IMG/VR virus record: IMGVR_UViG_3300008267_000003
Location: 98,012 to 162,011 of that record
Origin: a virus
Reading direction: 5' to 3' (one strand)
DNA: 64,000 nt
Positions 16,596 to 33,077 of this stretch are shown here, piece after piece (the stretch's first letter is position 1; each line of letters begins with the position of its first letter). The notes under the pieces were generated by a model that had not been told where the DNA came from, ran no database searches, and saw only the letters and a list, made by a program, of their open reading frames with translations. The position numbers and the translations under genes were made by a program.

Positions 16596-17165
16596 ATGAC
16601 AAATAAAGTGAGTGAAACCACTGCAGCTACAGCGCAAGATGATGTTGATTTGCTATTATATAAATCTGGATCGTTTTATCTTTCCGGTGACATCGATGAA
16701 CATTCTGTTTCAGATTGCATAAAGTGGATACTGGCTGAAAATATGGCCAACCGTCATACGCATCTGAACTTGTACATAAACAGTCTTGGTGGTGACCTAT
16801 ACCAGGCTTTTGGTCTTATTGACCTGATAAAAGCTAGTAGAATTCCTGTACACACAATAGGCGTAGGTAGTTTGATGAGTGCTGCATTTCTTATCTTTAT
16901 TTCTGGTTCAAAAGGCAATCGAATTATGACTAAAAATACTAGCGTCATGTCTCACCAGTTCTCAACCTATTATGAGGGTAAAGAACACGACGTTAAAGCT
17001 TCAGAAAAAGAAACTAGATATATTAAGCAGCGTATGTTAGATGTTATTAAACAAAGCTGTACAATGGACGAGAGAATGATAAAGCGAAAGCTACTTCCAC
17101 CATCCGATGTCTGGCTATCTGCAGATGAATGCGTGGAGTTAGGTGTAGCAGATGCAATCTTCTAG
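16596..17165 (+). CDS. ClpP-like serine protease
   Basis: A 189-residue protein of the ClpP/crotonase fold. The triad can be traced. Ser95 lies in GSLMSAAFLIF (91-101), His120 in SVMSHQF (117-122) and Asp171 in the PPSDVWLSADE segment (168-178). LYINSLGGDLYQAFGLIDLI (59-78) is the typical oxyanion-side strand. The Ser motif has one residue more than E. coli ClpP. Phage ClpP-like proteins act as free peptidases or prohead proteases. Because no adjacent capsid genes are seen, an intracellular role is more likely here. Confidence 0.85.
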   Translation: MTNKVSETTAATAQDDVDLLLYKSGSFYLSGDIDEHSVSDCIKWILAENMANRHTHLNLYINSLGGDLYQAFGLIDLIKASRIPVHTIGVGSLMSAAFLIFISGSKGNRIMTKNTSVMSHQFSTYYEGKEHDVKASEKETRYIKQRMLDVIKQSCTMDERMIKRKLLPPSDVWLSADECVELGVADAIF

Positions 17166-17231: not shown

Positions 17232-18242
17232 ATGAAATCATTTTTTCAATTCATTTTAGAATCAGTTTTAGTTGAGAAAGCACCTACACCATCAACAGGT
17301 GCTCTCGAAGCAGCTAATAAAACAAACACAGCATTCGGAGATGCTTATGAGACAGCAACTGTCCTTCTTCTTCATAATAATACAGCTGCCCAGCATAATA
17401 AAGATAAAAACTACCTAGCTTCCATTGAGCATGTGAAACAAAAACATGAAAAAGCTATGGCCAGTCTGCCTTCTAATAAAGCAGGTGATGCGCTCACGTT
17501 TGCAAGACGATCAGTGCATGCATATCTTGGAACACTATCGCATCAGGGCATTACTCAAGATCATATACATGAGGTTCATCATACAAGCCAAGGTATCAGT
17601 TCACATTTAGGTAAAACAGTCGATAGAGCAAGTAATCCTCACGATCTGTTAATAAAGGGTTCTAAAGATGGTAAATCTTTCATGCACGGTGCATCTCTCA
17701 AAGCTAAATCAGGTACTGCATCAAACAATTCAGTAGCTGCTTTTGAAAGAGCAAGTAATGCAGGTGATTCAAAACTTGGAGTAAAGACTAATATTTCTAA
17801 GCATTGGGAAGAAGGTAAGAAGAATGCTGGGTTGGTTGGTAAGACTGCTAAAGCGATAAAAGAACTACGCCATGATCCAGAAGTCAAAGAAGCTAATAGA
17901 AAAACTCAAAATGCATCAGCTGGTACACATGCAGAGGATTTTAACAACGCTAGTCACGAGGCTAAGCAGAAACACATGCTACACTTCTTAAAAGCAAATC
18001 CAATCCTTCCATACCATTATGTTGTTGGTAATAAGGGTACATCAACACCTATCAAAACACATCCAGCTGTTCAAGCTATCCACAATTCCAAATCATTAAC
18101 TGCCACTACAAAGAACAATGTAGTTCATTTCCACAATGAAAAAGGTGAACACATTGCTTCTGCTGAGCATAGAACAACTCATGGACCTTTTGTGAGTCCA
18201 CAAGTTAATTTTAAATTTGGAACAATGAAAGCTGCAAAATAA
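17232..18242 (+). CDS. Putative capsid cargo protein, nuclease-like
   Basis: A 336-residue, His- and Lys-rich protein. The first ten residues, MKSFFQFILE, followed by S, match the T4 internal-protein leader (MKTYQEFIAE), and ILE|S fits the gp21 prohead protease rule [L/I]xE. Downstream, SNPHDLLIKG (about 136-145) and HGASLKAKSG (about 155-164) resemble the D...SLKxK arrangement of PD-(D/E)XK-type nucleases. I treat that only as a hint. It is the first gene after the late promoter and abuts the next gene with a 1-base overlap. Leader recognition is firmer than the enzymatic guess. Confidence 0.6.
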   Translation: MKSFFQFILESVLVEKAPTPSTGALEAANKTNTAFGDAYETATVLLLHNNTAAQHNKDKNYLASIEHVKQKHEKAMASLPSNKAGDALTFARRSVHAYLGTLSHQGITQDHIHEVHHTSQGISSHLGKTVDRASNPHDLLIKGSKDGKSFMHGASLKAKSGTASNNSVAAFERASNAGDSKLGVKTNISKHWEEGKKNAGLVGKTAKAIKELRHDPEVKEANRKTQNASAGTHAEDFNNASHEAKQKHMLHFLKANPILPYHYVVGNKGTSTPIKTHPAVQAIHNSKSLTATTKNNVVHFHNEKGEHIASAEHRTTHGPFVSPQVNFKFGTMKAAK

Positions 18243-19408
18243 TGCGTCATATATTCTATCTACTGAAAGAATCAGCAGCCAACGAAGAGAAGTTAAAGCA
18301 TCTTGAGCATGCAGAAGACCATCCTATCAACGCTGGTGTTGATGGATACAAACATGCTGTCAACACTCTTACCGCTGTACATAAAACACTCACAGGTCAA
18401 AAGGGTGGTGCTGATCTAATGACCAAATATGATGGCAGTCCGAGTATTGTATTTGGACATCATCCACAGACTGGTAAGTTCTTTGTTGCATCCAAATCTG
18501 CGTTCAACAAAGATCCAAAGATTAACTATACTGACGAAGACATTGAAACTAATCATGGTCATGCTCCTGGTCTAGTATCTAAACTAAAGACCGCACTAGC
18601 CCATCTTCCAAAAGTTAGCCCTCAGAAAGGCGTCTTTCAAGGAGATGTGATGCATACATCTGAGGATGTGGAAGAGAAGGGTGGTAAGGTTCACTTTAAA
18701 CCAAATCTAATTAAGTACTCTACACCAGCCGACTCAGCAGAAGGTAAGAAGATTAAGAACTCCAAGATTGGTGTTTATGTCCATACAGGATATGAGGGTG
18801 GTGATGTTGAGTCCATGAAAGCAAACTATACTCCAAATCTTTCTGGTTTTGCTAACCACGACAGTGTCCATATGATGAAATGGGGATATGACACAAAGAA
18901 TTCAGACTATAATGAAGATGCTCAGAAGCAATTTAAAAGACATTTAGAAGATGCAACGGATGTTGGTAAGAAACTAAAACCTAAAGATTATGCAGCTATT
19001 GAACCTCACACCGAACATATAAAAACTTACATCAACAAGACAGTAAGAGATGATTCAACCCCTACTGCAGAAGGTTTGTATGATCATGTCAGAGACCAGC
19101 ATGAAAAGGGTATTGAAAAGGTCAAAACTCAAAAAGCAAAAGATCAAAAGACTCAAGCAATGAATACGCAGCTAGGTCATATAAGAGCTAACACTGAGGC
19201 TATCAGCAATGTGTTTGCAATGCATCATCACCTACAGAAAGCAAAGGATGTATTAGTCAATGCTATGTCTCATGGCCAAGACTTCGAACATCATATTGGT
19301 GATACAAAAACAAAACCAGAAGGATTTGTTGCTGTTGTAAATAATAGACCAACTAAGCTGGTTGATAGAAACGAGTTTAGTAAACAGAATTTCTTAGCGA
19401 GACAATAA
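18242..19408 (+). CDS. Putative capsid cargo, DUF6267-like with KxDG (ligase-like) motif
   Basis: A 388-residue protein. The leader MRHIFYLLKE|S fits the [L/I]xE cleavage form. MTKYDGSPSIVFG (60-72) has the K-x-D-G motif I of covalent nucleotidyltransferases (DNA/RNA ligases, capping enzymes). KGVFQGDVM (129-137) could be motif III, and later Lys-rich strands (KFFVASKSAFNK, FKPNLIKYS) fit ligase folds. Related phage proteins carry the label DUF6267 with no known function. No OB-fold domain is evident. It lies next to HAD-phosphatase-like and nucleotidyltransferase genes, consistent with nucleic-acid end repair. Confidence 0.6.
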   Translation: MRHIFYLLKESAANEEKLKHLEHAEDHPINAGVDGYKHAVNTLTAVHKTLTGQKGGADLMTKYDGSPSIVFGHHPQTGKFFVASKSAFNKDPKINYTDEDIETNHGHAPGLVSKLKTALAHLPKVSPQKGVFQGDVMHTSEDVEEKGGKVHFKPNLIKYSTPADSAEGKKIKNSKIGVYVHTGYEGGDVESMKANYTPNLSGFANHDSVHMMKWGYDTKNSDYNEDAQKQFKRHLEDATDVGKKLKPKDYAAIEPHTEHIKTYINKTVRDDSTPTAEGLYDHVRDQHEKGIEKVKTQKAKDQKTQAMNTQLGHIRANTEAISNVFAMHHHLQKAKDVLVNAMSHGQDFEHHIGDTKTKPEGFVAVVNNRPTKLVDRNEFSKQNFLARQ

Positions 19409-20013
19409 TGAAAAGATTCTCTCAATTCATAGCTGAGGCAGTGCAGAAGAAAGCATTGCATGTTTTTGATATTGATGATACTCTTATGCATACAACGGCA
19501 AAGATCCACGTTAAGGACCCTCAAGGTAAGGTAGTAAAGACTCTTACAAATCAAGAGTTTAACGATCATAAGCTACCTGCAGGACACAGCTACGACTTTG
19601 GTGAATTCAGAAACGCTGAGAAGTTTAATAAAGAGTCTAAGCCAATGCCGCACATGATCAACCATGTGAAGAAGCTGACATCTGATCCAAGCAATCATGT
19701 TATATTTAATACAGCACGTGCTAACTTTGATGATAAGAATACTTTCTTGCATACCTTCAAGAAGCATGGTATTAATATGAACAAGATTCATGTTATCAGA
19801 GCAGGTAACCTCAATAAAGAGGGTGCCCCTGCTGAGAAGAAAGCTGTAGTCATTCACGGCTACATAAAGAAGCACAAGTACAATGATGTCCATATGTACG
19901 ACGATAGCAAGACTAATCTAAAGTCTTTTGTTGGATTAAAACAGGCTCATCCAAACACAACATTCCATGCTCATCACGTTGAGGGTGAGAATGTAACAAC
20001 GAAGGTAGTATAA
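19408..20013 (+). CDS. Putative capsid cargo, HAD-family phosphatase
   Basis: A 201-residue protein. The leader MKRFSQFIAE|A is nearly identical to the T4 internal-protein sequence MKTYQEFIAE. A HAD core follows: DIDDTLMHT (21-29; D21 nucleophile, D23 acid), IFNTARANF near 110 (motif II) and MYDDSKTNLKS near 162 (motif IV). This arrangement resembles polynucleotide kinase 3'-phosphatase domains and phage HAD enzymes. No kinase P-loop is present. The substrate is unknown; nucleic-acid 3'-phosphates are my inference from the neighbours. Confidence 0.75.
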   Translation: MKRFSQFIAEAVQKKALHVFDIDDTLMHTTAKIHVKDPQGKVVKTLTNQEFNDHKLPAGHSYDFGEFRNAEKFNKESKPMPHMINHVKKLTSDPSNHVIFNTARANFDDKNTFLHTFKKHGINMNKIHVIRAGNLNKEGAPAEKKAVVIHGYIKKHKYNDVHMYDDSKTNLKSFVGLKQAHPNTTFHAHHVEGENVTTKVV

Positions 20014-20621
20014 TGAAAAGATTTACCAATTTCCTCCTAGAAGGAAAAGATAAGACTGCGGTTCTACTATTTGGTAGAATGAATCCCATTACTAGTGGTC
20101 ATGAGGAGAACGTAGAAGCTGCCCATGATCTGGCAAACTCTCATGATGGCCACCTTCATGTTGTTGCTAGTGGTTCACATGATGAGAAAAAGAATCCTCT
20201 TTCACCAGAACAAAAGCAAAAACATTTGCAGCGTGCATTCGGACACTTAGACAGTACAACAATTACTACAGCATCTAAATCAAAACCAACAATCATGCAT
20301 CATGCATCTGATATTGCTAAGACAGGTGTTAAGCATCTAGTGATTGCTGGTGGTAGTGACAGGGCAGAGGAGTATAAAACGTTGCTCAATAAGTATAATG
20401 GAGTCAAAGGAAAAGCTCATGGTGAGTATCACTTTGATTCAATTACAGTAAAGAATACCGGTGAACGTAAGGCTGGTGTTAGTGGTACTGATATGAGAAA
20501 TCATGCTTCAGGTGGTAACTACGGTAAGTTCAAAGCTGGACTTCCAAGTAAAATCAAGAAGAATGAGAAGTACTCAAGAGATATGTACAATGATGTAAGA
20601 TCGGGAATGAATATTAAATGA
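20013..20621 (+). CDS. Putative capsid cargo, HxGH-type nucleotidyltransferase
   Basis: A 202-residue protein. The leader MKRFTNFLLE|G ends in LLE at residue 10. The core is a cytidylyltransferase/adenylyltransferase Rossmann domain. It has LLFGRMNPITSGHEENV (18-34; T-S-G-H as the nucleotide site), NPLSPEQKQKHL near 64, a HLVIAGGSDRAEEY strand near 109 and a SGTDMRNH signature near 157. It resembles nicotinamide-nucleotide or pantetheine-phosphate adenylyltransferases. NAD synthesis or repair is one option, nucleotide-end modification another. It overlaps the LamG adhesin start by 4 bases. Confidence 0.75.
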   Translation: MKRFTNFLLEGKDKTAVLLFGRMNPITSGHEENVEAAHDLANSHDGHLHVVASGSHDEKKNPLSPEQKQKHLQRAFGHLDSTTITTASKSKPTIMHHASDIAKTGVKHLVIAGGSDRAEEYKTLLNKYNGVKGKAHGEYHFDSITVKNTGERKAGVSGTDMRNHASGGNYGKFKAGLPSKIKKNEKYSRDMYNDVRSGMNIK

Positions 20622-23600
20622 CTACAAAGATCACTGCTGATAACATTGAGCAAACTACACTTGCCACACTTTCAGGTGGTCCAGCAATTGCTAATATTCA
20701 GATTGCAAATTCATCATACGGTCTATTAGATGATACTGCTGTGAATACAGCTGGTGGCTATGTGGTAATTAATGGAACTAAGTTTTCGAATGGATGTTCT
20801 GTCCTTATAGGTAACACTGTAGCTACAACTGTTACGTTTGTATCAGCTACTCAGGTTAGAGCTCAGGTACCTGCAAAGGTTGGAGCTTCATATGTGGTGT
20901 ATGTGACTAATCCGGATGGTGGTACTGCTATTGCAGTAAACGGTCTTACATATAGTAACACTCCTGTTTGGGCTACAAATAGTACATTGACCCCGGGTGC
21001 TGTTGATGAGGCTATTAGTATTAATTTATCTGCCCCTTCAGATTCCAACGTTGTTTATTCTGTTGCTGCAGGTAGCTCGCTTCCATCTGGTGTGTCATTA
21101 GCTTCAAATGGATTGTTGAGCGGCACTATCACTGGTATATCAGAAGAAACCACTTATAACTTTACCGTGGATGCGATCGACGTTGAACTACAGGATACGT
21201 CTAGATCATTTAGCATAACTATTATAGCTGGTGATCAATACTACAAAAACACAACATTACATTTGAATGGTGAAACAGCATCTAATACATGGATCATAGA
21301 TGCTAGTACTAATAAGTTTCCAATCACCGTTGCTGGTGATACTAAGCCCGTAGGATTTAGTCCATATGAAACTATTTGGAGTAATTATTTTGATGGTGCC
21401 GGGGATGACTTAACGATCCCTACGAACTCGGCTTTCACTTACGGTACTGGAGATTTTACCATAGAAATGTGGGTGTATATAACAGCCAATCCAGGCGATT
21501 ACGCTTATTTTTATGCCCAAGGGCCTAACACAACTGCGTCTATGTGTTTATATATTCAAAGTGGGAAATTCAATGTTTGGAACGGATCCAACATTATTGT
21601 TGGATCAACATCATATTCACTGAACAGGTGGTATCACGTTGCGTTAAGTAGATCGGGAACATCTTTAAAATTGTTTTTGAATGGTGTTGAAGATGGATCT
21701 GCAACAAATAGTAGTAATATAACAACCGGGTCTACATATGGTTCAACCATCGGTCGTTGGGTAGAAATTGTAGATAATCGTTATTTCACTGGATACATCT
21801 CAAATGCTCGTGTCGTTAAAGGCACTGCACTCTACACAGCAAACTTCACTCCACCAACCTCACCATTAACCGCAATCACAAACACCAGTTTATTAACCTG
21901 TCAAAGTAATAGATTAAGAGATGCTAGCACAAATAATTTTACAATTACAAGAAACGGTGATGTATCAGTAAGTAATTTTGGTCCTTTTGTCGAAACTGAT
22001 TTAATTACTGGTAGTGCATTTTTTGATGGCACAGGGGATTATTTAAATGCAGGTACTACTCAACTTTGGACTCCTGCTAATAGTTTTACTGTAGAAAGCT
22101 GGTTTTATATTACTTCTTTTGGTGGTAACACTAGAGGGCTTTTTGCTAAAGATGCTGGTACCTCAGGTTCCTCTAGAGGCATATCGATTTACGTAAACAC
22201 AAATGGATCGGTAACTGTATTTTATTCATCATCTGGATCAGACGAATTATCTGCAACTTCTGTTTCTTCTGGTTTAGTAACAGTTAATCAATGGTATCAT
22301 TTTGCTTTTGTCAAAAACGGAAGTAGTTGCACTCTTTATTTAAATGGATCTTCAGTATTATCCTTCACTTCAGCAACTATTGCGTGTCCCGTATCTCCAT
22401 CAAATTTAATCGGTGCGTTTACAAATGGATCAACTGCTTTAAATATGCTAGGGTATATGAGTGATTTTAGATTGGTTTCAAACACAGCAGTCTACACTTC
22501 AAACTTTACACCACCAACCACACCATTAACTGCAATTGCAAACACAAGTTTACTCACACTACAATCTCGTATTGGCGAAAACAATAATCGTTTTGTTGAT
22601 ACTTCTGGATTGAATAATATTATCACTAGAAACGGTAATACAACACAAGGTACATTTAGTCCATATCAAAGAGGTGGTTGGAGTGGTTATTTTACGGGAT
22701 CATCAACAAGTTACATATCGACACCATCGACAACATTATTAAATCAAGGACAAACATACACTGTACAGTGTTGGATATATCCAACATCATTTACAACATC
22801 AACTAGCGCTGTTCGTAGAATGTATCTGTTTGTTAAGGGTGTTATTTACGCAGGTTTATCAATACATAGTGACGGAACATTAGGTTGGTATGGTTGGCCT
22901 ACTCCTGGTGGAATGATAGCTACTTCAGCGGCAGGAACAATCACAACTAATTCTTGGCAGCATGTTGCACTCGTTGTTAATCCCGGCAACTATATTAAGT
23001 TATTTAAAAATGGTGTAGAAGTAGGAACAGCGAGTTATACTGCTGCAGGCGCAGATGGATCAGCGATAATAATAGGGCATGGTGATACAGGTCAAGGTAC
23101 CGATGGATTCATTGGATATATTAGTAATTTTAAGATAACCCAATCAGCATTAACCGGTGGTCAATTGGATTATTCCACCACACCAACAATTTCCTCACCA
23201 ACAGGATCCTCGTTATTAACATTGCAAACGAATCAATTCAATGATACAAGCAACTATAATTTATCTATAACACCAGCCGCAGCTGCATCAGTACAACCAT
23301 TTAGTCCATTCAAAACGCATACGATAACAGCTAATACTCTTAGTGTTTTTTTTAATGGTACTGGAGACTTTTTAAGTGTTCCTGTAAATACTGCTTTTCA
23401 ATTTGGAACTGGAGATTTTACAATTGAATGCTGGTGGTATCCGACAAGTTTAGCAACATTCCAACCTTTGATTTATCATACTGATGACAGCGGCGTTGCT
23501 GGAACAGGAGAGTATGTATTAGTTTATAATACAACTTTAGGAATGAGGTTTTATATAAACGGTGGAACAACAACAATAACACAAGGAAATACTACAGGAT

Positions 23601-25147
23601 GGTCTACAAATTTGTGGTACCATGTAGCAGCAGTTAGAAACGGAAATACGTTAACGATTTATAGAAACGGAATTTCTATTGCAAGCGGTAGTGTTTCGGG
23701 AATTACTATTGGTGCAAGTGTACTAACTTACATAGCCGGAGAACCATTTGATCCAGGATATATGACAGGGTATATTTCGAATGTTCGTATCGTTAAAGGA
23801 ACCGCAGTCTACACTTCAAACTTTACACCACCAACCTCACCATTAACCGCAATTGCAAACACCAGTTTATTAACCTGTCAGTCGAGCAGTATAATTGACA
23901 ATAGCACAAATAATTTTGCAATTACAAGAAATGGTAATGCTAGAGTTACTACTGTGAATCCATTAGGATTTACCGTAACTAATTTATCAGGATCATCGGC
24001 GGATTATTCCATCATTGACGAAGGTGGTAGTATGTACTTTGATGGCACTGGTGATTATTTGGCAACTGCGGATAAAGTTGATTTAAGACCAGGAACTTCC
24101 AACTTTACTTTAGAAGGTTGGATTTATCGTGATGTTGCTGGTGCAGCACACACCATATATGCAAAAGGTGGAGCGTCAACAGGTATTTTATTACAAGTCA
24201 CATCTACAAATGTATTGAGGTTTACTCATACAACAACTAATATAGATTCTACTATAACTATACCAGCAAAATCTTGGACTCATGTAGCAGTGGTACGTAG
24301 TGGCACTTCAACAAATCAAACTAAACTCTATATTAATGGTGTATTTGCAGCACAAGGAACAGTAAGTACTGATTTCACACAAACAGAAGAAGCTAGAGTT
24401 GGAACAAACAGAGCTGCTGGTGAAAACTTTAATGGTTATATTTCCGCATTGAGATTCTTAAAAGGTGTTGATCATTACACTTCTGGATTTGTACCACCAG
24501 CTGCACCACTAACACCCATTGTAGGAAGTACTTTATTGTTGAATGGTACTAATGGTGGTGTTTTTGATTACACTAGAAAAAATAATTTAGAAACAGTTGG
24601 TGATATTAAGATCAGAAACAATATTGTTAAGTATGGTAACACATCAATGTATTTTGATGGTACTGGAGATTATTTAAAAGCATCAACATCCGACATGGGT
24701 AATTTTGGCACAGGAAATTTTACAATTGAGATGTGGGTGTACTTTAACACTGTTTCAGGAACACAAAATTTAATTGATTTTAGAACAGCAACAAATGATG
24801 TTGCTTTAACAATCGCCTTAGCGAGTAGTGCTATAATATTATATGTAACCGGGTCTACAAGAATAACAACATCAACTTTGTCTGCTACAACTTGGTATCA
24901 TATCGCGTGTGTTCGCAGTTCTGGTGTTACAAAAATTTATATCAATGGAACTCAATCTGGATCTAATTATACCGATACCAATTCTTATGTAGGAAAGGCA
25001 AATAGGCCTTTGATCGGCGAATTGGCTGATGGAACTACACCATTACAACCATTAAATGCTTATGTTGACGATCTTCGTATCACCAAAGGTGTTGCAAGAT
25101 ACACCGCAAACTTCACAGCACCTACATCAGCTTTACTGACCAGATGA
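20618..25147 (+). CDS. Giant LamG-repeat adhesin (tail-fibre or virion receptor-binding protein)
   Basis: A 1509-residue extracellular-type protein. Residues about 20-110 form an IPT/TIG-like domain (VVINGTKFSNGCSVLIG). Residues about 113-205 form a cadherin-like putative-Ig domain (SLPSGVSLASNGLLSGTITG). Then come six concanavalin A-like (LamG) domains starting near 253, 466, 689, 909, 1138 and 1344, each marked by YFDGTGDYL and FTIEMWVY strands. Such modules bind glycans, so I infer host-surface recognition. There is no signal peptide, as expected for a virion part. Linkers between LamG units are nearly identical at DNA level, see repeats. The N terminus (MTTKITADNIEQTTLATLSG) is shared with the next gene. 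Confidence 0.85.
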   Translation: MTTKITADNIEQTTLATLSGGPAIANIQIANSSYGLLDDTAVNTAGGYVVINGTKFSNGCSVLIGNTVATTVTFVSATQVRAQVPAKVGASYVVYVTNPDGGTAIAVNGLTYSNTPVWATNSTLTPGAVDEAISINLSAPSDSNVVYSVAAGSSLPSGVSLASNGLLSGTITGISEETTYNFTVDAIDVELQDTSRSFSITIIAGDQYYKNTTLHLNGETASNTWIIDASTNKFPITVAGDTKPVGFSPYETIWSNYFDGAGDDLTIPTNSAFTYGTGDFTIEMWVYITANPGDYAYFYAQGPNTTASMCLYIQSGKFNVWNGSNIIVGSTSYSLNRWYHVALSRSGTSLKLFLNGVEDGSATNSSNITTGSTYGSTIGRWVEIVDNRYFTGYISNARVVKGTALYTANFTPPTSPLTAITNTSLLTCQSNRLRDASTNNFTITRNGDVSVSNFGPFVETDLITGSAFFDGTGDYLNAGTTQLWTPANSFTVESWFYITSFGGNTRGLFAKDAGTSGSSRGISIYVNTNGSVTVFYSSSGSDELSATSVSSGLVTVNQWYHFAFVKNGSSCTLYLNGSSVLSFTSATIACPVSPSNLIGAFTNGSTALNMLGYMSDFRLVSNTAVYTSNFTPPTTPLTAIANTSLLTLQSRIGENNNRFVDTSGLNNIITRNGNTTQGTFSPYQRGGWSGYFTGSSTSYISTPSTTLLNQGQTYTVQCWIYPTSFTTSTSAVRRMYLFVKGVIYAGLSIHSDGTLGWYGWPTPGGMIATSAAGTITTNSWQHVALVVNPGNYIKLFKNGVEVGTASYTAAGADGSAIIIGHGDTGQGTDGFIGYISNFKITQSALTGGQLDYSTTPTISSPTGSSLLTLQTNQFNDTSNYNLSITPAAAASVQPFSPFKTHTITANTLSVFFNGTGDFLSVPVNTAFQFGTGDFTIECWWYPTSLATFQPLIYHTDDSGVAGTGEYVLVYNTTLGMRFYINGGTTTITQGNTTGWSTNLWYHVAAVRNGNTLTIYRNGISIASGSVSGITIGASVLTYIAGEPFDPGYMTGYISNVRIVKGTAVYTSNFTPPTSPLTAIANTSLLTCQSSSIIDNSTNNFAITRNGNARVTTVNPLGFTVTNLSGSSADYSIIDEGGSMYFDGTGDYLATADKVDLRPGTSNFTLEGWIYRDVAGAAHTIYAKGGASTGILLQVTSTNVLRFTHTTTNIDSTITIPAKSWTHVAVVRSGTSTNQTKLYINGVFAAQGTVSTDFTQTEEARVGTNRAAGENFNGYISALRFLKGVDHYTSGFVPPAAPLTPIVGSTLLLNGTNGGVFDYTRKNNLETVGDIKIRNNIVKYGNTSMYFDGTGDYLKASTSDMGNFGTGNFTIEMWVYFNTVSGTQNLIDFRTATNDVALTIALASSAIILYVTGSTRITTSTLSATTWYHIACVRSSGVTKIYINGTQSGSNYTDTNSYVGKANRPLIGELADGTTPLQPLNAYVDDLRITKGVARYTANFTAPTSALLTR
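21835..23885 (+). repeat. Near-identical inter-LamG linker repeats
   Basis: Three copies of a roughly 70-base segment, encoding TANFTPPTSPLTAI(T/A)NTSLLT-like linkers, lie near 21,835-21,905, 22,491-22,561 and 23,810-23,885. They differ at only a few bases, while the LamG domains between them are diverged. They are natural sites for recombination that would change domain number. Confidence 0.8.
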
Positions 25148-25500
25148 CAACTAAAATAACAGCAGCTAATATTTCCGAAGCAGCACTAACCACTATTAGT
25201 GGTGGTCCTAAAGTAACATCCATCTCATCCACTAACTCACTTTACGGTGCTTTAGAATCTAACACAGTTAATGCTACTGCAGGTGGATACATTAAAGTCT
25301 TAGGTTCAGGATTTGCTAATGTTACACAGATATATATTGACGTAGATAACCCAACTCTTGCAACATCTGTTTCGTTTATTAGTAACACAGAAGTGAGAGC
25401 TGTTGTACCAGCCAAAACAGCTGGTTCATATCTCGTATACGTTGTAAGAACAACAGATGGCGCAGTAGCCACTGTCATTAACGGAATAACATATGCGTAA
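25144..25500 (+). CDS. Single IPT/TIG-domain protein, paralogue of the adhesin N terminus
   Basis: A 118-residue protein that is essentially one IPT/TIG domain. Its start MTTKITAANISEAALTTISG copies the first residues of the 1509-residue adhesin (MTTKITADNIEQTTLATLSG). The body (YIKVLGSGFANVTQIYIDV, EVRAVVPAKTAGSYLVYVV) repeats the first domain of that protein. It probably arose by duplication. It may cap or assemble with the adhesin, or provide an alternative short virion decoration. It overlaps the adhesin stop by 4 bases. Confidence 0.8.
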   Translation: MTTKITAANISEAALTTISGGPKVTSISSTNSLYGALESNTVNATAGGYIKVLGSGFANVTQIYIDVDNPTLATSVSFISNTEVRAVVPAKTAGSYLVYVVRTTDGAVATVINGITYA

Positions 25501-25531
25501 AAACGTAAGAAAAAATAACTAAAGGACTAAC

Positions 25532-26173
25532 GTGAATACATTATTTGACGATATTGCAAAATTTAGAGATGAAGAGGTTGATGGTATTGGAGGGTGGTGG
25601 TGGCCCGTTGCTGATGATGGAGCGTGGGATGGTCCAAGTAAAGATTGGCAAGGGTTGAAGAATGCATTTCAATATGTGAAACAAAAAGGGGTTGTAGTTC
25701 AGGCAGGAGGTAATTGTGGTCTTTATCCAAGGCTACTATCCGAACATTTTGACTATGTTTACACATTCGAACCAGATCTCTATAACTTCCACTTTCTAGC
25801 TCGTAACTGCCAAAAAGAAAACATTATTAAAATTAATGCTGCTCTTGGTGAAATGAACAAATTAGTAGGTACATCTAGATCCGGATATACAAGTAACAAC
25901 TGCGGTGGATTGACTGTCACAAACAACAATACTTTTATTCCAACATTCTCCATTGATCAACTAGCACTTAGTCGCTGTGATATGATTCAGCTCGATTGTG
26001 AGGGTTATGAACCAAACGTGATTGTTGGTGCAATGGAAACAATTCTACAGTTTAAACCAGTTATAACATTGGAAACCTGCACAATAGAGATTGAACAATT
26101 ACTAACTCCTCTTGGTTATAAAAGAATGGAAGGACGATTTGGTCATGTTGATCAATGTCTCGTAGCTTCATGA
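25532..26173 (+). CDS. FkbM-like SAM methyltransferase
   Basis: A 213-residue protein starting at GTG 25532 with AAAGGAC upstream. Rossmann-type motifs are GVVVQAGGNCGLYPRLL near 53 (SAM loop I) and YVYTFEPDLYNF near 75 (acidic end of strand 2). IIKINAALG near 95 and DMIQLDCEGYEP near 150 complete the FkbM signature. These enzymes O-methylate sugars. Its place directly after the adhesin genes suggests glycan or adhesin-associated modification, which is inference. A second FkbM gene is at 48.6 kb. Confidence 0.8.
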   Translation: MNTLFDDIAKFRDEEVDGIGGWWWPVADDGAWDGPSKDWQGLKNAFQYVKQKGVVVQAGGNCGLYPRLLSEHFDYVYTFEPDLYNFHFLARNCQKENIIKINAALGEMNKLVGTSRSGYTSNNCGGLTVTNNNTFIPTFSIDQLALSRCDMIQLDCEGYEPNVIVGAMETILQFKPVITLETCTIEIEQLLTPLGYKRMEGRFGHVDQCLVAS

Positions 26174-26175
26174 AT

Positions 26176-26183
26176 TATAAATA
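26176..26183 (+). promoter_or_regulatory. T4-type late promoter TATAAATA
   Basis: Exact octamer immediately after the FkbM stop and 45 bases before the ATG at 26229. It drives the second cargo/virion block. The leader between contains a short GCAG...CTGC inverted repeat. Confidence 0.8.
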
Positions 26184-26228
26184 AAGTATAATCCCGGCAG
26201 TAAGGCCTAGGTAAACCTGCGGAAAACT

Positions 26229-28142
26229 ATGAAAAAAGATAAAGATAATCAAAATACGGCTATCAGCCGTGCCAAAAAAGGACAAGCAATTCTAACTGGT
26301 AATCCAGCAGATATTGTTGTTGTCAGCCCCGAAGAAAAGCCTAAAAAGCTCCAATCAGAAGATCATTTACTTGAAAAAGTAGTTAGCCTTGTTCAACGTC
26401 GTAAGAGAGCAATCTCTATGAGACGTCGTGAACCTAAGATGGAGCGTAGACGTCAAATCTTAAAAACTAGACTAGCATCTAAAGAAAAGTTAATGCAGCG
26501 TGCCATGAGAATGGCTAAGCAGCTTTTGCGTAGAAAGATGGCTGGTAAACGTGGCTCTCAGTATCAATACCTTGGTCCTACAGAAAGACTTAATATTGAT
26601 AAAATGATTGAGCCAAGAGCCCAGGCAATTAAAAAGATTGCAATGAGACTGCTTCCAAGAGTTCAATCTGGTGAAAGAAGAAGACTTAGTGCAGTTCACG
26701 CTGGCAAATCTACTAAAGGTGTTTATAACACATCAACCAGTATTGTATCTCACTACGAACCAAGTATTAAATCCAATTTGATTGGTGAGAAGATCTCCAA
26801 AGAAGATTTGAATCAATTGTTCAGTCTTTACGAAGCTGGTTTTATGAGAAATCTTGGTTCTGTAATAACTTCTCCTATTAGAGCAGCTGGTATTGTAGGT
26901 AAGATTGGTTTAGGAGCAGCGGCAATCAGCAGTGCAATGTCTACACCTAGAGGGGCTGTAGGTACACTGGCTGCAGGAACTGCTGCTGCAAGTAAGAAGA
27001 TGTCTGAGTTTGGAAAAATAGACAAAGACAAAGAAAAAGATACTGGTAAGTCATGGTCTCTGTTCAAAACTCCTCAAGAGAAAATGGAGTTGGAAAGACT
27101 CAAGCAATCTAAAGAAGCCACAACACAGTCAAAGATAACTACTCAGCAAAAGAAACTTGATTTAGCATCACAGAAGGATGAATTAGAGAAGAAAAAGAAA
27201 CTTAACCTTGTAGCTCATAAAGAATGGGACTATGAAGGATATCTTACTGAAAAAGCTCTGCACAGCATATTTCAAAAGTCTCTAGATAGTGATATACCTT
27301 TTGAGTCTCTTAAAGAAGTATTCAACAGGGGAATACAAGAGTGTAGCTGTCAAGGTATGAAAGAGAAGCAACAGGTTGCAATGCAGCGTGTTAACTCGTT
27401 TATCTCTCAGGGTAAGTCTTATTATGAAGAGGATAAGGATATTGCTGAGAGACAAGGTCTATGGGCTAATATTCACGCTAAGCGTAAACGTATCGAATCT
27501 GGGTCTGGTGAAAGAATGAGAAAGCCAGGATCCAAAGGTGCTCCAACAAAACAAAACTTTGTTGATGCTGCAGAGGAAACTGTAAAGAAGACACCACATG
27601 AAAAGTTTAAAGCTGGTTTAAAGAAAGCTGGATACGATCCTGACGCAGGTGCAAAAAGGTTATTAGATCTTATTGCAAAGCAAAAGAAAGAGCGTGAAGA
27701 GCGTGAAGCAAAGTATAAAGAGATGTCTGAAGAAGATCAGCTCAATGAGTATGGAGATACTGCTAAGGGTCAGAAAATGCTGACCAAGGTTCAGAAACGA
27801 GCAGTAGATAGAGTAGTATCTAAAAAAGCAGATACAGATCCTAAGTATGCTAAAAAGAATAGCGATACTGCTAAACGTGCTTGGGAGAGATTTACTAATA
27901 TTGATGAGAGCTTTGTCGTGGACCGTGCAGCTGGTTACAGTACGACGTACACAGCGGCGGATTTAGGTATTAAAATGCAAGGTGGTTTTGAACTACATCC
28001 TTCAGTAACGGAAGAAGGTGGGGCAGGTGATGAGGGTACTAACAAGCTAGTTAATAAATATAAAAAAGATACTCCAGGTGAGCAGCTTGAAGCTATGATT
28101 AGAATGATGAGATCAAAAAGAAAGGCTAGCACACCATGCTAA
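26229..28142 (+). CDS. Large basic virion-associated protein with Ala/Gly hydrophobic segment
   Basis: A 637-residue, very Lys/Arg-rich protein. Residues about 55-155 are a strongly basic helical region (RRKRAISMRRREPK...ERRR). Residues about 210-265 contain a hydrophobic Gly/Ala-rich stretch (SPIRAAGIVGKIGLGAAAIS) that could insert in a membrane. A charged coiled-coil region follows to about 345, then more Lys-rich sequence. Similar basic proteins occur in the structural region of marine T4-like phages. It could bind DNA in the head or take part in DNA ejection. I see no enzyme motif. It overlaps the next gene by 7 bases. Confidence 0.6.
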   Translation: MKKDKDNQNTAISRAKKGQAILTGNPADIVVVSPEEKPKKLQSEDHLLEKVVSLVQRRKRAISMRRREPKMERRRQILKTRLASKEKLMQRAMRMAKQLLRRKMAGKRGSQYQYLGPTERLNIDKMIEPRAQAIKKIAMRLLPRVQSGERRRLSAVHAGKSTKGVYNTSTSIVSHYEPSIKSNLIGEKISKEDLNQLFSLYEAGFMRNLGSVITSPIRAAGIVGKIGLGAAAISSAMSTPRGAVGTLAAGTAAASKKMSEFGKIDKDKEKDTGKSWSLFKTPQEKMELERLKQSKEATTQSKITTQQKKLDLASQKDELEKKKKLNLVAHKEWDYEGYLTEKALHSIFQKSLDSDIPFESLKEVFNRGIQECSCQGMKEKQQVAMQRVNSFISQGKSYYEEDKDIAERQGLWANIHAKRKRIESGSGERMRKPGSKGAPTKQNFVDAAEETVKKTPHEKFKAGLKKAGYDPDAGAKRLLDLIAKQKKEREEREAKYKEMSEEDQLNEYGDTAKGQKMLTKVQKRAVDRVVSKKADTDPKYAKKNSDTAKRAWERFTNIDESFVVDRAAGYSTTYTAADLGIKMQGGFELHPSVTEEGGAGDEGTNKLVNKYKKDTPGEQLEAMIRMMRSKRKASTPC

Positions 28143-28402
28143 GTTTCTTAGAATACATAGCTGAAGCAGAATATCAAGGTCGTGATGTACCTCTTAACAA
28201 GCCTATGGCTGGAGACGTAAAGAAGTCAAAAGTGTTTGTCAAGAATGAGTCAGGTAACGTTGTAAAAGTAAACTTTGGTGACAAGAATATGACTATTAAA
28301 AAGAATATTCCTGCTCGCCGTAGAAGCTTTAGAGCAAGACACAACTGCGACAATCCTGGTCCTAAAACAAAAGCAAGATATTGGTCATGTAAGGCATGGT
28401 AA
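28136..28402 (+). CDS. Small capsid-targeted protein with Cys/His/Arg-rich C terminus
   Basis: An 88-residue protein. The leader MLSFLEYIAE|A has the same FxxxIAE form as T4 internal proteins. The C terminus RSFRARHNCDNPGPKTKARY followed by WSCKAW is a compact, conserved-looking motif. Its two cysteines and one histidine might bind metal. Similar endings occur in other marine phage virion proteins, to my recollection under DUF5872 or no name. Function unknown; a head-packaged basic protein is likely. Confidence 0.65.
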   Translation: MLSFLEYIAEAEYQGRDVPLNKPMAGDVKKSKVFVKNESGNVVKVNFGDKNMTIKKNIPARRRSFRARHNCDNPGPKTKARYWSCKAW

Positions 28403-28403
28403 T

Positions 28404-28850
28404 ATGAAAGAACAACTAAACGAAAAAATGAAGGTGGTATTAGCAGATAGTTTTGCTTTCTACCTCAAAGCACACCAGTTTCACTGGAATGTTGAAGGAC
28501 CTAATTTTCCACAGTATCATGAGTTTCTTGGTAACTTGTACGAAGAAGTGCATGCTGCTATTGATACAATCGCAGAAGAGATAAGATCACTTGGTGTATA
28601 CGCTCCAGGTTCATTTAGTAGATATTCTGAGTTATCCTCAATTAAAGATAATAGAGGTCTTCCATCAGCAGGTGAGATGATGAATGAATTGTTAGCTGAT
28701 AACCAGATTGTTTTAAATACTCTAGATGAAGCTTATAGATTAGCTGAAGAGTATGATGAAATTGGTCTATCTAACTTCTTGCAGGATAGATATGATGCAC
28801 ATAAAAAGCATGCGTGGATGCTTTCATCCATTCTAAAGAGAGACAGATGA
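28404..28850 (+). CDS. Dps-like ferritin
   Basis: A 148-residue four-helix protein of the Dps family. The ferroxidase ligands are in exact Dps spacing: H27 (in FHWNVEG), H39, D54 and E58 (AAIDTIAEE). Dps forms 12-mers that oxidise and store iron and shield DNA. Here it is embedded among putative capsid cargo genes. Its own N terminus, MKEQLNE|K, contains an LxE but is also close to a normal Dps start, so packaging is undecided. It overlaps the next gene by 4 bases. Confidence 0.9.
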   Translation: MKEQLNEKMKVVLADSFAFYLKAHQFHWNVEGPNFPQYHEFLGNLYEEVHAAIDTIAEEIRSLGVYAPGSFSRYSELSSIKDNRGLPSAGEMMNELLADNQIVLNTLDEAYRLAEEYDEIGLSNFLQDRYDAHKKHAWMLSSILKRDR

Positions 28851-29422
28851 AATACGTTACATTAGAAAATAGAATTAGATCGGTTATTCGTGAGTCTAGA
28901 AAAAGACTTTACGAAGCTAAAAAGCCACCTATTGAAAAAGATCAGGCAGATCAGATTGCTGCTGGTACATACGTAACAAAACACTTTGAGATGTGTCCTG
29001 GGTCACAGAAACTATTCACATCTTTACCCAAAGGTGTTGACCCAATGAAAGCAGAGAGATTAGCTATTCTACATGATCAGCTATTTGCTCTTGAAAAGCA
29101 CGCTAAAGCTCAGGAAAGAACTACTCAGTCTGATGTTGATGAGGCTGGTAAATTAGCAGATAGAATTAGAACATTAGCTGACGAAATGGGTATTGCAGAC
29201 AGAGTTGGGTATATCAAAGATCATTTAGACCTCTTTAATAAATATTTACAGCCAGATAGTAATATTGTTGATAAACTTACCCCAGAGCATATGAAGAGAT
29301 TGTTTACTCCTCCTATTACCAGCACTCCTGAACCTAAGGATAATGATATTGATAACTCAAAGTTTGTTTTATCAAGAAATATTAAAGCTCAAAGAAAACT
29401 AAAAATCATAGACGCAGACTAA
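28847..29422 (+). CDS. Hypothetical protein with IRE leader, putative capsid cargo
   Basis: A 191-residue helical, charged protein. The N terminus MKYVTLENRIRSVIRE|S ends in IRE at residue 16, a longer version of the [L/I]xE leader seen in its neighbours. The body has no motif I recognise. It includes THFEMCPGSQKLF-like and ADRIRTLADEMGIADRVGYI segments. Position, overlap with the Dps gene and leader type suggest it is packaged with the rest of this block. Confidence 0.6.
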   Translation: MKYVTLENRIRSVIRESRKRLYEAKKPPIEKDQADQIAAGTYVTKHFEMCPGSQKLFTSLPKGVDPMKAERLAILHDQLFALEKHAKAQERTTQSDVDEAGKLADRIRTLADEMGIADRVGYIKDHLDLFNKYLQPDSNIVDKLTPEHMKRLFTPPITSTPEPKDNDIDNSKFVLSRNIKAQRKLKIIDAD

Positions 29423-29423
29423 A

Positions 29424-32186
29424 ATGAAAAAAATCTACGAAGACATCAACAGGATCCTTAGTGAGAAGAAGTTTACTTCATCTTCTCGGTCACAACCAAT
29501 TATAGATGTTAAATTTAAGGAGGTAAGGGATTTTGTACCAGATTTGAAGACACCTATCAATCGTAGAGGTGGTCCTCCAGACGGTCTTCCAAAAAGGTTA
29601 GCTGGAAGTCTTGGTAGAGGAGCTAATATTCTAGCTCTAGCTGATTTATTAAGCACTCACGGTGAATTGAATACAGGTGAAGATGACGAGCTTAAGAAGA
29701 GACGCGCGTCTGATCCAAAATATCAGGAAGCTGAGCGTCAGCTGAATAAACCTAGACCTGTAAATTTTAGAGATGATAAAGGAATTCAGTATGATACTCA
29801 GGGTAACCCATTCAGAGATCCTAACAAGGAAGCAATGGCTACCCACTCAGCAATAACTAAGAAAGACGTTGTTCCGCAGGCATCATCTATAAGCACAACT
29901 AGACGAGCAACGTCAAAGAGAGTTGCTTCCGACAATACAGCTAGTAGTAATCAAACAACTGCTAACACTTACTGGACTAACCCAAATCAACCTGCTAAAT
30001 CTGAACCAGCTAAGCCAGAACCAGCTAAGCCAGAACCAGCTAAGCCAGAACCAGCTAAGCCAGAACCAGCTAAGCCAGAACCAGCTAAGCCAGCATGGAC
30101 AGAGCCAGCTTATCCAGAACCTAAAGCAAACTCAGCTAAACCTGAGCCACCTAAAGCAGAACCTAAAGCAGATGTATCAAGTGTAGCTAAAGAATATATC
30201 AAGGCGAATGCATCTAGCAAGCCAGAGCCTGCTTCTACTGAAGAAAAACCAGAAGAAAAATCTAAAAGAGTAAAGATTATTAAACCTAGTACTACTTCTG
30301 AAAGCTCCATGCTTAGTAGAATCAGAAATGCTTTAAGTGAGAAGCATCAGGTGGATGAGGTTGTTGGTGTTGGTACCAAAGCTGTCAAATACGGTCCGTC
30401 TGCTATTAGATTTGGCTACAAATTTTTCAGAGATGTTTTTAAAGATAATAAATCAGAGGTTACTGTTACAAAACCTCCTCCAGCTCCTAAACCTGAATCC
30501 AAACCTCAACCACAACTTCCTCCTCCAGCTTCTGCAGCTAAGGTAGAAAGACAAGTACCTACGTCAAAAGATGTAGTAAAGACCGAGCCAAAGCAATCCA
30601 GTGTAAATGTTTCCAAAGACGCTAAAACTGAAAGACAAGTTAATGTTTCCAAGGACGCTAAAACAGAAAGACAGGCTACTGTTTCCAAGGAAGTTAGATC
30701 AGATAAAACTGGAAAAGGAAAAGTAGGTCAGAAAAATGCTACTCAGGATATTGTTGTTAGACAAGCAGAACCAGTAAAAACAGATAATGTACCTGCTGTA
30801 AAAACAGACAATGTTCCTGCCGTAAAAACAGATGTAAAACCTTCTGTAAAAACAGATAATGTACCTGCTGTAAAAACAGACAATGTTCCTGCCGTAAAAA
30901 CACAAACAGGAACTGCTGTAGTAACTACAACTACAACTAAAAATCAAGTAGAAACTAAACCAGAAACTCAGTCAAAATTAAAAAGAGTTGGGCCACCACC
31001 ACCTCCACCTCCAGTAGATCAACAAACAACCGAACCGGAACCACCTAAGAAAAATACATTTAAGCATGGTCCTGAGCCTTTAATCTTTAAAAATGAACCT
31101 CCTAGGGAAGATCCAAAACCTCAACCTAATAACGTAGTGCCTCCGGAGCCTCCAGCACCTCCGCCTCCACCTCCACCACCGCCTCCTAAAAAAGGACCTT
31201 CGTTAGTGGATCCAGTGCCTCAGCCTAATGTTGTAGTGCCACCAACACCAGCTCCAAGGAAGAGTGTTCAGGATTGTCCAACTGGTGATTGTGATCCAAA
31301 CCTGGACGTCAAAGCGATGTATGCTAAACTAGCATCATCTACCTCAAGAGGCTACAAAGAATCCAAACCTAAATTTTCAATGGAAGACACCCAAATGAAC
31401 ATCAACAAGAAATTTAATGTATCAGATAATCTATATCAGTCCGTAATGGAAGTGATGACAAAAGCTAAAAAACCTGGATCAGTTCCTGGTAATCAGGCCG
31501 AGAGAGATCTTGCTGCTAAGCATGGTGACCCAGATAGAATCACTCACGGTGACATTCTTGTTGCACGTGGTGTTGTAAAGAGTAACAAACCACCTATGAA
31601 GGAAGAAATAAGTGTTTCTAAGGACACTCCAGGCAACGGCTACGAGCATCAGTGCGCAATCCATGTTAAGCAAGTCAGCGAGGGATCGATGGATAAAATG
31701 TCATTGAGTCAGTTGAAAGCTAAGCACGAGCATCACTACACAAGTGATAGTCAGAATTATCCTGGAGCAGAAAATGATGTAGATGATGATCCTGATCGTA
31801 TGGAAAAACATAATAAAGCTTCTAAGGCCATTGAATCCCATGTAGCCAAGAAGTTTGGTAAAGCATCAAGTCGTTCAATGGTGGCTGATAGCAAACGCAA
31901 AGTCAAACAAATATACAAGTCAATGTACAATGAAGGGGTATCAAAGAACATGGACACTCCAGGCAACGGCTACGAGCATCAGTGCGCAATCCATGTTAAG
32001 AGTGAGTCGTTTGGAGAAGGCCGTACAGTAACTACTCAACATGCTGATCCAGATGCATACGGTAACATTGCATGGTATGATGTTATGTTTGAGCATGGTA
32101 TTGAAAAAGGTGTTCCAACTTCTGAGCTTGAGATTCTTGTTTCTGAGTCGCATATGCATTCAAAGCGTAAAAAAAAGGGAATGTAA
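29424..32186 (+). CDS. Long proline-rich repeat protein with cargo-type leader
   Basis: A 920-residue, largely low-complexity protein. The leader MKKIYEDINRILSE|K ends in LSE. Residues about 194-223 are six PAKPE-type repeats. Residues about 395-425 hold VSKDAKTERQ repeats, about 450-493 VKTDNVPA repeats, and near 525 and 585 there are polyproline runs. Two globular-looking parts remain: about 640-720 and the C terminus (about 735-920). The second contains the 16-residue DTPGNGYEHQCAIHVK segment twice. It may be an extended linker that spans or coats a structure. It shows the strongest internal DNA repeats in the window. Confidence 0.65.
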   Translation: MKKIYEDINRILSEKKFTSSSRSQPIIDVKFKEVRDFVPDLKTPINRRGGPPDGLPKRLAGSLGRGANILALADLLSTHGELNTGEDDELKKRRASDPKYQEAERQLNKPRPVNFRDDKGIQYDTQGNPFRDPNKEAMATHSAITKKDVVPQASSISTTRRATSKRVASDNTASSNQTTANTYWTNPNQPAKSEPAKPEPAKPEPAKPEPAKPEPAKPEPAKPAWTEPAYPEPKANSAKPEPPKAEPKADVSSVAKEYIKANASSKPEPASTEEKPEEKSKRVKIIKPSTTSESSMLSRIRNALSEKHQVDEVVGVGTKAVKYGPSAIRFGYKFFRDVFKDNKSEVTVTKPPPAPKPESKPQPQLPPPASAAKVERQVPTSKDVVKTEPKQSSVNVSKDAKTERQVNVSKDAKTERQATVSKEVRSDKTGKGKVGQKNATQDIVVRQAEPVKTDNVPAVKTDNVPAVKTDVKPSVKTDNVPAVKTDNVPAVKTQTGTAVVTTTTTKNQVETKPETQSKLKRVGPPPPPPPVDQQTTEPEPPKKNTFKHGPEPLIFKNEPPREDPKPQPNNVVPPEPPAPPPPPPPPPPKKGPSLVDPVPQPNVVVPPTPAPRKSVQDCPTGDCDPNLDVKAMYAKLASSTSRGYKESKPKFSMEDTQMNINKKFNVSDNLYQSVMEVMTKAKKPGSVPGNQAERDLAAKHGDPDRITHGDILVARGVVKSNKPPMKEEISVSKDTPGNGYEHQCAIHVKQVSEGSMDKMSLSQLKAKHEHHYTSDSQNYPGAENDVDDDPDRMEKHNKASKAIESHVAKKFGKASSRSMVADSKRKVKQIYKSMYNEGVSKNMDTPGNGYEHQCAIHVKSESFGEGRTVTTQHADPDAYGNIAWYDVMFEHGIEKGVPTSELEILVSESHMHSKRKKKGM
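30003..30092 (+). repeat. Six tandem copies of a 15-base coding repeat
   Basis: The unit GAACCAGCTAAGCCA is repeated six times without interruption at 15-base spacing, encoding a PAKPE array. Identical units at DNA level suggest recent expansion by slippage. Confidence 0.95.
30774..30902 (+). repeat. 72-base-period tandem duplication
   Basis: 57 bases at 30774-30830 recur exactly at 30846-30902 (24-codon period), encoding VKTDNVPAVKTDNVPAVKT. Within each copy is a further, diverged 24-base subrepeat. Confidence 0.9.
31622..32000 (+). repeat. Exact 49-base direct repeat, 330 bases apart
   Basis: 31622-31670 and 31952-32000 are identical over 49 bases, in the same reading frame, encoding DTPGNGYEHQCAIHVK. 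Flanks are unrelated. Recombination between the copies would remove exactly 110 codons. Confidence 0.92.
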
Positions 32187-33077
32187 ATGAAGACTCTAAA
32201 GCAGATTATTGAGGGTGTTGTTGTTACGTCTGATTTTAAATTGGACAGAAAAGGTCGCAAGTATAAAGCTCATCGTATGTCGATGGGTGATGATATGAAG
32301 GAAGATTCAAATCCTTATACGAAAGTATACGAAGAGGATACCTTTACTAAAACCCTTCCTCGTATGGGCAACAAAGCCTTGGATACAGCCAAAGGTTTAA
32401 TTAGTCCTTATGAAAAAGCTATGTCTGATATGTCCCCTGGATCTGATTACTACAAGAAAAACATAGAAAATAATCCAGAAGCAAAAGCAAAAGTTGATGA
32501 TTTCATGAAGTCAGCTCCCAAAGCTAGTGAGCTTGATTCCAGCATCGATAAAACAAAACAAAAATTCAACAAAGCTCTCACAAACAAAGGCACGGTGGGT
32601 GATTCTGTTGAAGAGGATACTTCAATAATGAACGCAGAAAGATCAAAAGTTCTAGCAAGATTTATCAAAAGTGCTACTCCAAAAAATGGACAAGTTGTAT
32701 ATAATGTTGATACGAGTGGAGAAGTTTCTGAAGCACGAGGACGTCCTGCTGGTGCTGCTACTCTTGCTAAACGTGCAGCTGCAGCTTCTAAGCCACGTGA
32801 GGATGATGAGGAAGGTGAACATTACGAAGCAGATAGTGGAGTAGAAGCAGATCAGCATATCCATGTTCAGTTAAAGAAAGCTGCTGACTCTGATCAGAAA
32901 CCATTTGAAGTATCCTTCAAGAATGGTAAGAAACATACTGTATCTCAGAAGGTTGCTAAGGATATTCTCAGTGCTACAGAAAGACTAAAACCAGAACACA
33001 GAAAGAACGTTCATGATGAGATTCATCATTCTTATGATAATCTAATGTCGGTTCATAGATTGGTAGCTCGTAAATAA
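32187..33077 (+). CDS. Hypothetical cargo-type protein with IIE leader
   Basis: A 296-residue charged protein whose start MKTLKQIIE|G has IIE at residues 7-9, matching the gp21-type site. The body is hydrophilic, rich in Lys, Glu and Asp, and has an acidic stretch (EDDEEGEHYEADSG). The C-terminal domain (about 215-296, IHVQLKKAADSDQ onward) looks folded and may be a strand-rich module followed by helices. It starts one base after the long repeat protein. Function unknown. Confidence 0.65.
   Translation: MKTLKQIIEGVVVTSDFKLDRKGRKYKAHRMSMGDDMKEDSNPYTKVYEEDTFTKTLPRMGNKALDTAKGLISPYEKAMSDMSPGSDYYKKNIENNPEAKAKVDDFMKSAPKASELDSSIDKTKQKFNKALTNKGTVGDSVEEDTSIMNAERSKVLARFIKSATPKNGQVVYNVDTSGEVSEARGRPAGAATLAKRAAAASKPREDDEEGEHYEADSGVEADQHIHVQLKKAADSDQKPFEVSFKNGKKHTVSQKVAKDILSATERLKPEHRKNVHDEIHHSYDNLMSVHRLVARK

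Follow-up and report, generated by a model that had tools for sequence, protein, structure and literature searches.

In a 64,000-nucleotide stretch of viral DNA, hereafter the window (bases 98012-162011 of the 162-kilobase IMG/VR record IMGVR_UViG_3300008267_000003), a block of genes encodes proteins with short N-terminal leaders resembling those of phage T4 internal proteins. We conclude with high confidence that these are T4-type capsid-targeting leaders, and that at least five, probably six, of the block proteins are head cargo, cut by a gp21-type protease and ejected with the DNA. Packaging is supported by the match to the T4 motif, the presence of gp21 and gp22 homologues in the same genome, the conservation of the motif alone among relatives, and mass spectrometry of homologues in purified virions. 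Five leaders are considered firm (17232, 18242, 19408, 20013, and 28136) and that of 32187 a likely sixth; in the list and throughout, a slash marks the predicted cut.

17232-18242, plus strand: leader protein 1, 336 residues, MKSFFQFILE/S (leader 17232-17261); putative nuclease.
18242-19408, plus strand: leader protein 2, 388 residues, MRHIFYLLKE/S (leader 18242-18271); DUF6267 (PF19782, E=1e-98).
19408-20013, plus strand: leader protein 3, 201 residues, MKRFSQFIAE/A (leader 19408-19437); predicted HAD-superfamily phosphatase.
20013-20621, plus strand: leader protein 4, 202 residues, MKRFTNFLLE/G (leader 20013-20042); NMNAT/cytidylyltransferase-like.
28136-28402, plus strand: leader protein 5, 88 residues, MLSFLEYIAE/AEYQG (leader 28136-28165); PHROG 7595, a family of unknown function.
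32187-33077, plus strand: leader protein 6 (likely), 296 residues, MKTLKQIIE/G (leader 32187-32213); a shorter variant with Glu at residue 9.

The strict motif used here, M..h..h[ILV].E, calls for hydrophobic residues at positions 4 and 7, Ile, Leu, or Val at 8, and Glu at 10, with expectations computed from internal positions of the record's proteins. The rest of the record was read along with the window, giving 140 gene calls, and the motif opens 7 of these 140 N-termini (0.21 expected, P=2.5e-9). Five matches fall among the 14 genes of the block (approximately 0.02 expected, P=1.5e-11), against 2 of 126 genes outside it and none after 739 internal methionines; a version with aromatic residues at both 4 and 7 was observed five times against 0.02 expected. 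The five block leaders keep positions 4, 7, 8, and 10 and differ elsewhere. Mutational work on T4 IPIII assigned residues 4 and 7 to targeting and residues 8 and 10 to processing (PMC9026906), and both IPII and IPIII begin MKTYQEFIAE/A in the T4 record. At the nucleotide level, a leader pattern returned 36 matches in the 18 records searched versus one control match; shortened by one codon, it returned few, S-SZBM1_140 among them.

An earlier, sequence-only reading had claimed leaders on eight open reading frames. All eight exist with the starts it quoted (17232, 18242, 19408, 20013, 28136, 28847, 29424, and 32187), and Glu does lie at residue 10 in exactly five. The number of leaders was too generous: the five strict ones stand and that of 32187 is likely, whereas those of 28847 and 29424 are at chance level as written. 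Its bare [LI]xE rule is a weak criterion, since 29 occurrences within the first 16 residues compare with 13.9 expected; the rule was dropped as too common, and the three nonstrict leaders consequently had to be judged by comparison with relatives. Packaging by a T4-type leader, as that reading had proposed, is well supported for five proteins and likely for a sixth, with eight being too many.

Conservation among relatives is confined to the motif. DUF6267 homologues occur in 466 phage records, nearly all from marine T4-like phages; 80 loci were fetched from IMG/VR. In a nonredundant set of 36 homologues, whose bodies differ from one another by more than 12%, the leader is present in 32. The filter for this leader set demanded the Glu and the residue two before it and made no demand on residue 7, which is nonetheless Phe, Tyr, Leu, or Ile in all 32; residue 4 is Phe in 23, and the positions between 4 and 7 vary. 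The leaders of 17232, 18242, 19408, 20013, and 28136 all recur in homologues, including 57-60% identical relatives of 17232 (MKSFFQFIVE/A in L094 and MKSFSTFVQE/Q in L096) and relatives of 19408 (MKTFKTFLTE/A in L023 and MKTFLQYLEE/S in L063). That of 32187 is kept in L016 and L020, with MKTLKDILSE/G in L015. Some homologues of 19408 and 20013 have a leader while others begin directly, or nearly so, with the catalytic domain, which marks the leader as a detachable add-on module. In Stenotrophomonas phage DLP6, the closest cultured relative by capsid (75%), the only exact leader-pattern match is the start of the DUF6267 gene; phiM12, a capsid relative, gave no leader-pattern match, and DUF6267 was likewise not found there.

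The seventh strict match in the record is UvsX (window 12877-13932, MSFLKSLIKE), and similar N-termini occur in many relatives. It was set aside as cargo because its whole N-terminus looks conserved, not the motif alone, and the match is probably a coincidence.

The machinery that would process such leaders is encoded in the same record. The sequence-only reading had been staked on a gp21-type protease elsewhere in the genome, and a search for one returned a clear match (PF03420, E=1.5e-36; PHROG 207, E=3e-75), leaving the claim unrefuted on this count. A PHROG search also retrieved homologues of the scaffold protein gp22 and of gp23, the latter with an [LI]xE site at residue 56 (LTE/T) that is a plausible candidate for a T4-type cut. 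Internal [LI]xE sites are absent from the DUF6267, HAD, NMNAT-like, 28136, and 32187 proteins taken together, against approximately 5.2 expected, and the observed/expected values for leader-bearing versus leaderless members of three families were 0.41/0.62, 0.62/0.99, and 0/0.39. This scarcity appears to agree with exposure to gp21, the sequences being related and the numbers small.

An independent test comes from virion proteomes of cultured cyanophages. An NMNAT-like/cytidylyltransferase was listed by mass spectrometry in purified virions of S-SM1 (PMC3037559), S-SZBM1 (PMC9146016), S-SCSM1 (PMC9602691), and S-CREM2 (PMC10665884). These proteins are homologous to 20013, and all four begin with the leader: MKKFSAFLNE/A in S-SM1, MRFRQFIIE/A in S-SZBM1, MKSFLQFLKE/A in S-SCSM1, and MKNFSSFLTE/A in S-CREM2. 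The S-SCSM1 N-terminus was predicted first and looked up afterward, and the leader fitted. In S-SM1 and S-SZBM1, the gene lies in the gp41-to-gp61 region. The DUF6267 neighbor in S-SZBM1 has no leader and is absent from the virion list. Across the S-CREM2 genome, the strict motif is present in 4 of 52 virion-detected proteins versus 1 of 167 others (p=0.012), the four being a SAM hydrolase, a 78-residue protein, an APH-like kinase, and the cytidylyltransferase; with structural proteins removed, in the regions first examined and with a slightly looser motif, the counts were 4 of 13 versus 2 of 126. A kinase of S-CRM01 was reported in virions according to PMC10665884, and is apparently SCRM01_130c, which begins MISFDQFLSE/K. 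No mention of the leader was found in the S-SM1, S-SZBM1, S-SCSM1, and S-CREM2 virion papers, and searches of open-access text found capsid targeting described for no marine T4-like phage, a T4 review being the only hit.

Two further proteins from these phages were noted alongside. S-CREM2 gp12 (L138:7704-10313, minus strand), a virion-detected nuclease annotated as Cas9, has the leader-like stretch LRFASFMAE/A near residue 25, set back from the protein start. S-CRM01 g185 (L185:1546-1941), annotated as an acetyltransferase, begins MKTFDEFLTE/G and is predicted to be cargo.

In the proposed mechanism, residues 4 and 7 of the leader would dock each protein into a gp22-type core during prohead assembly, after which the gp21-type protease would cut behind [LI]xE at residue 9-10. 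The mature proteins would then remain in the head among the DNA and exit with it at infection. We infer the removal of the leader after Glu from the motif and, by analogy with T4, delivery into the host by ejection. The predicted cargo comprises the DUF6267 ligase-like nucleotidyltransferase, the HAD phosphatase (taken as polynucleotide-kinase/phosphatase type), the NMNAT-like nucleotidyltransferase, the putative nuclease, and smaller proteins, with enzyme activities assigned by inference. Our best guess at the purpose is protection against host defenses in the first minutes of infection, before phage genes are expressed, through nucleic-acid end repair and a supply of nicotinamide adenine dinucleotide (NAD) or nucleotides; this likeliest purpose is given about one chance in three.

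Several observations weigh against this account. The body of 17232 contains two [LI]xE sites well inside the protein, most of the nonstructural proteins detected in S-CREM2 virions have no strict leader, and S-SZBM1_191 and S-SZBM1_192 have perfect leaders yet were undetected in virions. The S-CREM2 authors considered contamination possible, as virions purified on cesium chloride can carry contaminants (PMC10665884). The comparisons include related sequences, so the counts overstate independence, and the phage of this record is uncultured and known here from sequence alone. Contamination enters one rival explanation, in which the leaders are ordinary N-terminal helices whose resemblance arises by chance or as a general feature of late proteins. 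UvsX, with no reason to be packaged, fits it both in the window and in many relatives, as does the frequency of bare [LI]xE near N-termini. The absence of the strict motif after internal methionines, its rarity outside the block, the conservation of the motif alone, and its association with virion presence argue the other way, and this explanation, the least probable of those considered, is already strongly disfavored.

A different possibility is that the leader takes the proteins into the core to serve in prohead assembly, as T4 gp22 and gp67 do, and that they are degraded or lost before DNA packaging, without delivery to the host. The T4 core also holds proteins digested by gp21 (PMC9026906); a protein encoded at 72112 of this genome, beside the portal and gp21 genes and starting MAKSLKNILE, resembles such a digested core protein, and 26229 has nine [LI]xE sites. 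Five leader proteins have no internal site at which they would be digested, however, and mature virions of four phages contain NMNAT-like homologues with the leader, making a core-only fate improbable, albeit the strongest of the alternatives. It is very improbable, though a shade less so than ordinary helices, that the leader instead directs processing by the ClpP-like protease of 16596, with head loading incidental. That protein matches ClpP-type head maturation protease families, but among the fetched loci only the window and seven near relatives gave a match to its gene, while the leaders are widespread; moreover, the P3/P1 rule belongs to T4 gp21, a homologue of which is present. Capsid targeting followed by gp21 cutting and ejection is the reading retained below.

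Predicted functions of the cargo vary in how well they are supported. The DUF6267 protein (18242) has K62xDGxP, E360-G361, and K372 invariant in 43 DUF6267 sequences, including those of cyanophages, a pattern we take to be that of ATP-dependent ligases and related nucleotidyltransferases. With these covalent nucleotidyltransferase motifs (KxDG, E-G, and K), it is predicted to be nucleotidyltransferase/ligase-like. Its AlphaFold2 model has a predicted local distance difference test (pLDDT) score of 89, and residues 1-15 fall below 50, which fits a removable leader; the top 11 Foldseek matches are DNA/RNA ligases or ligase complexes, all weak (best E=0.01, template modeling score 0.22). The 19408 protein contains FDIDDTL (the DxDxT motif) and matches PHROG 415 "polynucleotide kinase" (E=4e-9), with HAD-type Pfam matches below cutoff, and on these matches is placed among the HAD phosphatases, as a relative of phage polynucleotide kinases. 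Profile matches similarly indicate that 20013 is an NMNAT/cytidylyltransferase-type nucleotidyltransferase (PHROG 3041, E=7e-44; CTP_transf_like, E=0.001, just under the cutoff; NMNAT profiles weak). Searches of PDB sequences with 18242, 19408, and 20013 gave no significant matches. In 17232, E40, D138, and HGxSLK157 are invariant across six sequences, and the protein is a putative PD-(D/E)xK-like nuclease by motif only; a Pfam search gave no matches, and structure comparison lent the nuclease identity no support, a low-confidence AlphaFold2 model (pLDDT 74) returning no PDB fold matches.

The gene slot upstream of DUF6267 appears to be a fast-changing position: across loci L007-L092 it holds some 20 clusters of unrelated-looking proteins, several with D...(E/S)xK-like motifs, and some with the leader and others lacking it. 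A Pfam search of the proteins upstream of DUF6267 in relatives gave no significant matches.

Among known systems, the closest are T4 IPI, IPII, and IPIII, which share with the block a leader of approximately 10 residues, hydrophobic positions 4 and 7, [LI]xE before the cut, and the same head assembly system (gp21, gp22, and gp23 homologues). The T4 internal proteins number three, are small (95-193 residues), and are encoded away from gp41, whereas the block cargo is mostly enzyme-like, spans 88-388 residues, and is encoded together, with gp41 on one side and a likely virion structural gene on the other. Like the cargo proposed here, T4 Alt (an ADP-ribosyltransferase) is an enzyme that travels in the head, undergoes gp21 processing, and is ejected to modify the host; it differs in being another enzyme, in its 7-residue N-terminal propeptide (PMC9026906), and in lying outside any multienzyme block. 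The sequence-only reading, which had described an enzyme cargo far beyond that of T4, overlooked Alt, itself a large gp21-processed enzyme cargo. Cyanophages S-SM1, S-SZBM1, and S-CRM01 have a homologous leader-bearing nucleotidyltransferase in the gp41-to-gp61 region, and virion-associated NMNAT/cytidylyltransferase, SAM hydrolase, and APH-like kinase are known from S-SM1, S-SZBM1, S-SCSM1, S-CREM2, and S-CRM01. In the cyanophages examined, the DUF6267 neighbor has no leader, whereas in this phage it does. Giant phage SPN3US, with its ejection proteins, and P1, with DarA/Hdf, are likened here by description: their proteins are head-packed, in some cases cut by a prohead protease, and delivered to the cell.

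Capsid targeting (from T4) and enzyme cargo (from Alt) are already known; the new elements are the set of enzymes, the leader they have in common, the distribution of this set across environmental T4-like phages, and a connection with the unexplained virion enzymes of cyanophages. Metabolic and repair-like enzymes have turned up in cyanophage virions purified by several groups, which left undecided whether these are packaged or contaminants. The leader offers a mechanism, and a sequence rule predicting which proteins travel in the head. T4-related phages with such tags probably deliver preformed enzymes together with their DNA. Given how common T4-like phages are among aquatic viruses, enzyme delivery at infection could be widespread and could be readable from genome sequence alone.

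A trace of the same arrangement may exist in T4 itself. The only exact match to the leader DNA pattern in T4 is gene 61.1 (54 residues, hypothetical; T4 18966-19130, L174:1467-1631, minus strand), which begins MKTFKEFIKE/D; it sits between genes 41 and 61, where marine relatives have the cargo block. Its leader and position suggest that the same place holds cargo in T4, and gene 61.1 may be a remnant of it. The broader proposal, that T4-like phages conserve the gp41-gp61 stretch as a cargo island where a portable leader is joined to changing enzymes that act in the host before phage expression, is advanced tentatively, at somewhat below an even chance. In some relatives, cargo domains would be fused into polyproteins, with gp21 cutting at retained [LI]xE junctions.

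Further features of the block and its borders are as follows.

16596-17165: ClpP-like protease, immediately before the leader block; similar to head maturation proteases of the ClpP type.
26229-28142, plus strand: 637-residue protein without an N-terminal leader; internal site IAE407 (27441-27449), followed by RQG, just before a LWANIHAK domain.
28404-28850, plus strand: Dps/ferritin-like protein (PF00210, E=4e-26); not claimed as cargo.
28847-29422, plus strand: 191-residue protein; claimed leader ending IRE16.
29424-32186, plus strand: 920-residue proline/lysine-rich protein; claimed leader MKKIYEDINRILSE/K, weakly supported.
33482-34342, plus strand: likely homologue of a T4-like virion structural protein, by position and N-terminal MxLWGxxD / MSLYG.

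In several relatives, the small LW[DA]NIHAK domain stands alone behind a full leader, for example MISFKEYLEE/GKRGLWDNIHAK; in others it forms an internal part of a longer protein, as in 26229. An [LIVM]xE lies at most 12 residues upstream of it in 21 of 24 distinct matches. Similarly, [LIM]xE before AE[YF]QG, in the 28136 family, is kept in many relatives despite differing upstream residues, and the sites retained at both junctions point to the cut as the conserved feature.

The IRE16 leader of 28847 was rejected, being no better than chance as written and not conserved in homologues; an [LIV]xE at residue 23 of the same protein (RLYE/AK; 28907-28915) has a counterpart in several lineages. The 29424 leader (ILSE14) was downgraded as chance-level as written, kept only in L016 and lost in L020 and L015. 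At L016:16680 onward, the occupant of the 29424 slot has closely similar first 15 residues (MKKIYESAKEILSE/K) and a different body, which reads like a soluble lytic transglycosylase (ETGG...NPDSGATGIMQ). A leader was sought on the Dps/ferritin-like protein in the window and in its homologues, and none was found. PHROG matches of 33482 are weak, and its likely homologue borders the block in cyanophages.

Elsewhere in the record, the protein encoded at 72112-73245, between the portal and gp21 genes, has 377 residues, begins MAKSLKNILE/V, and contains seven [LI]xE sites; PHROG and NCBIfam searches gave no matches, and it is perhaps a prohead core protein. The ClpP-like protease coexists with the gp21-type protease in one phage. 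An 82-residue protein with the strict leader MKRFADYINE/VSEPKQ... is encoded outside the window and far from the block (genome 1914-1666, minus strand), and a possible further leader, MSKFSNLISE/TEYLKT, opens a 55-residue open reading frame at the very end of the record (window 63831-63998).

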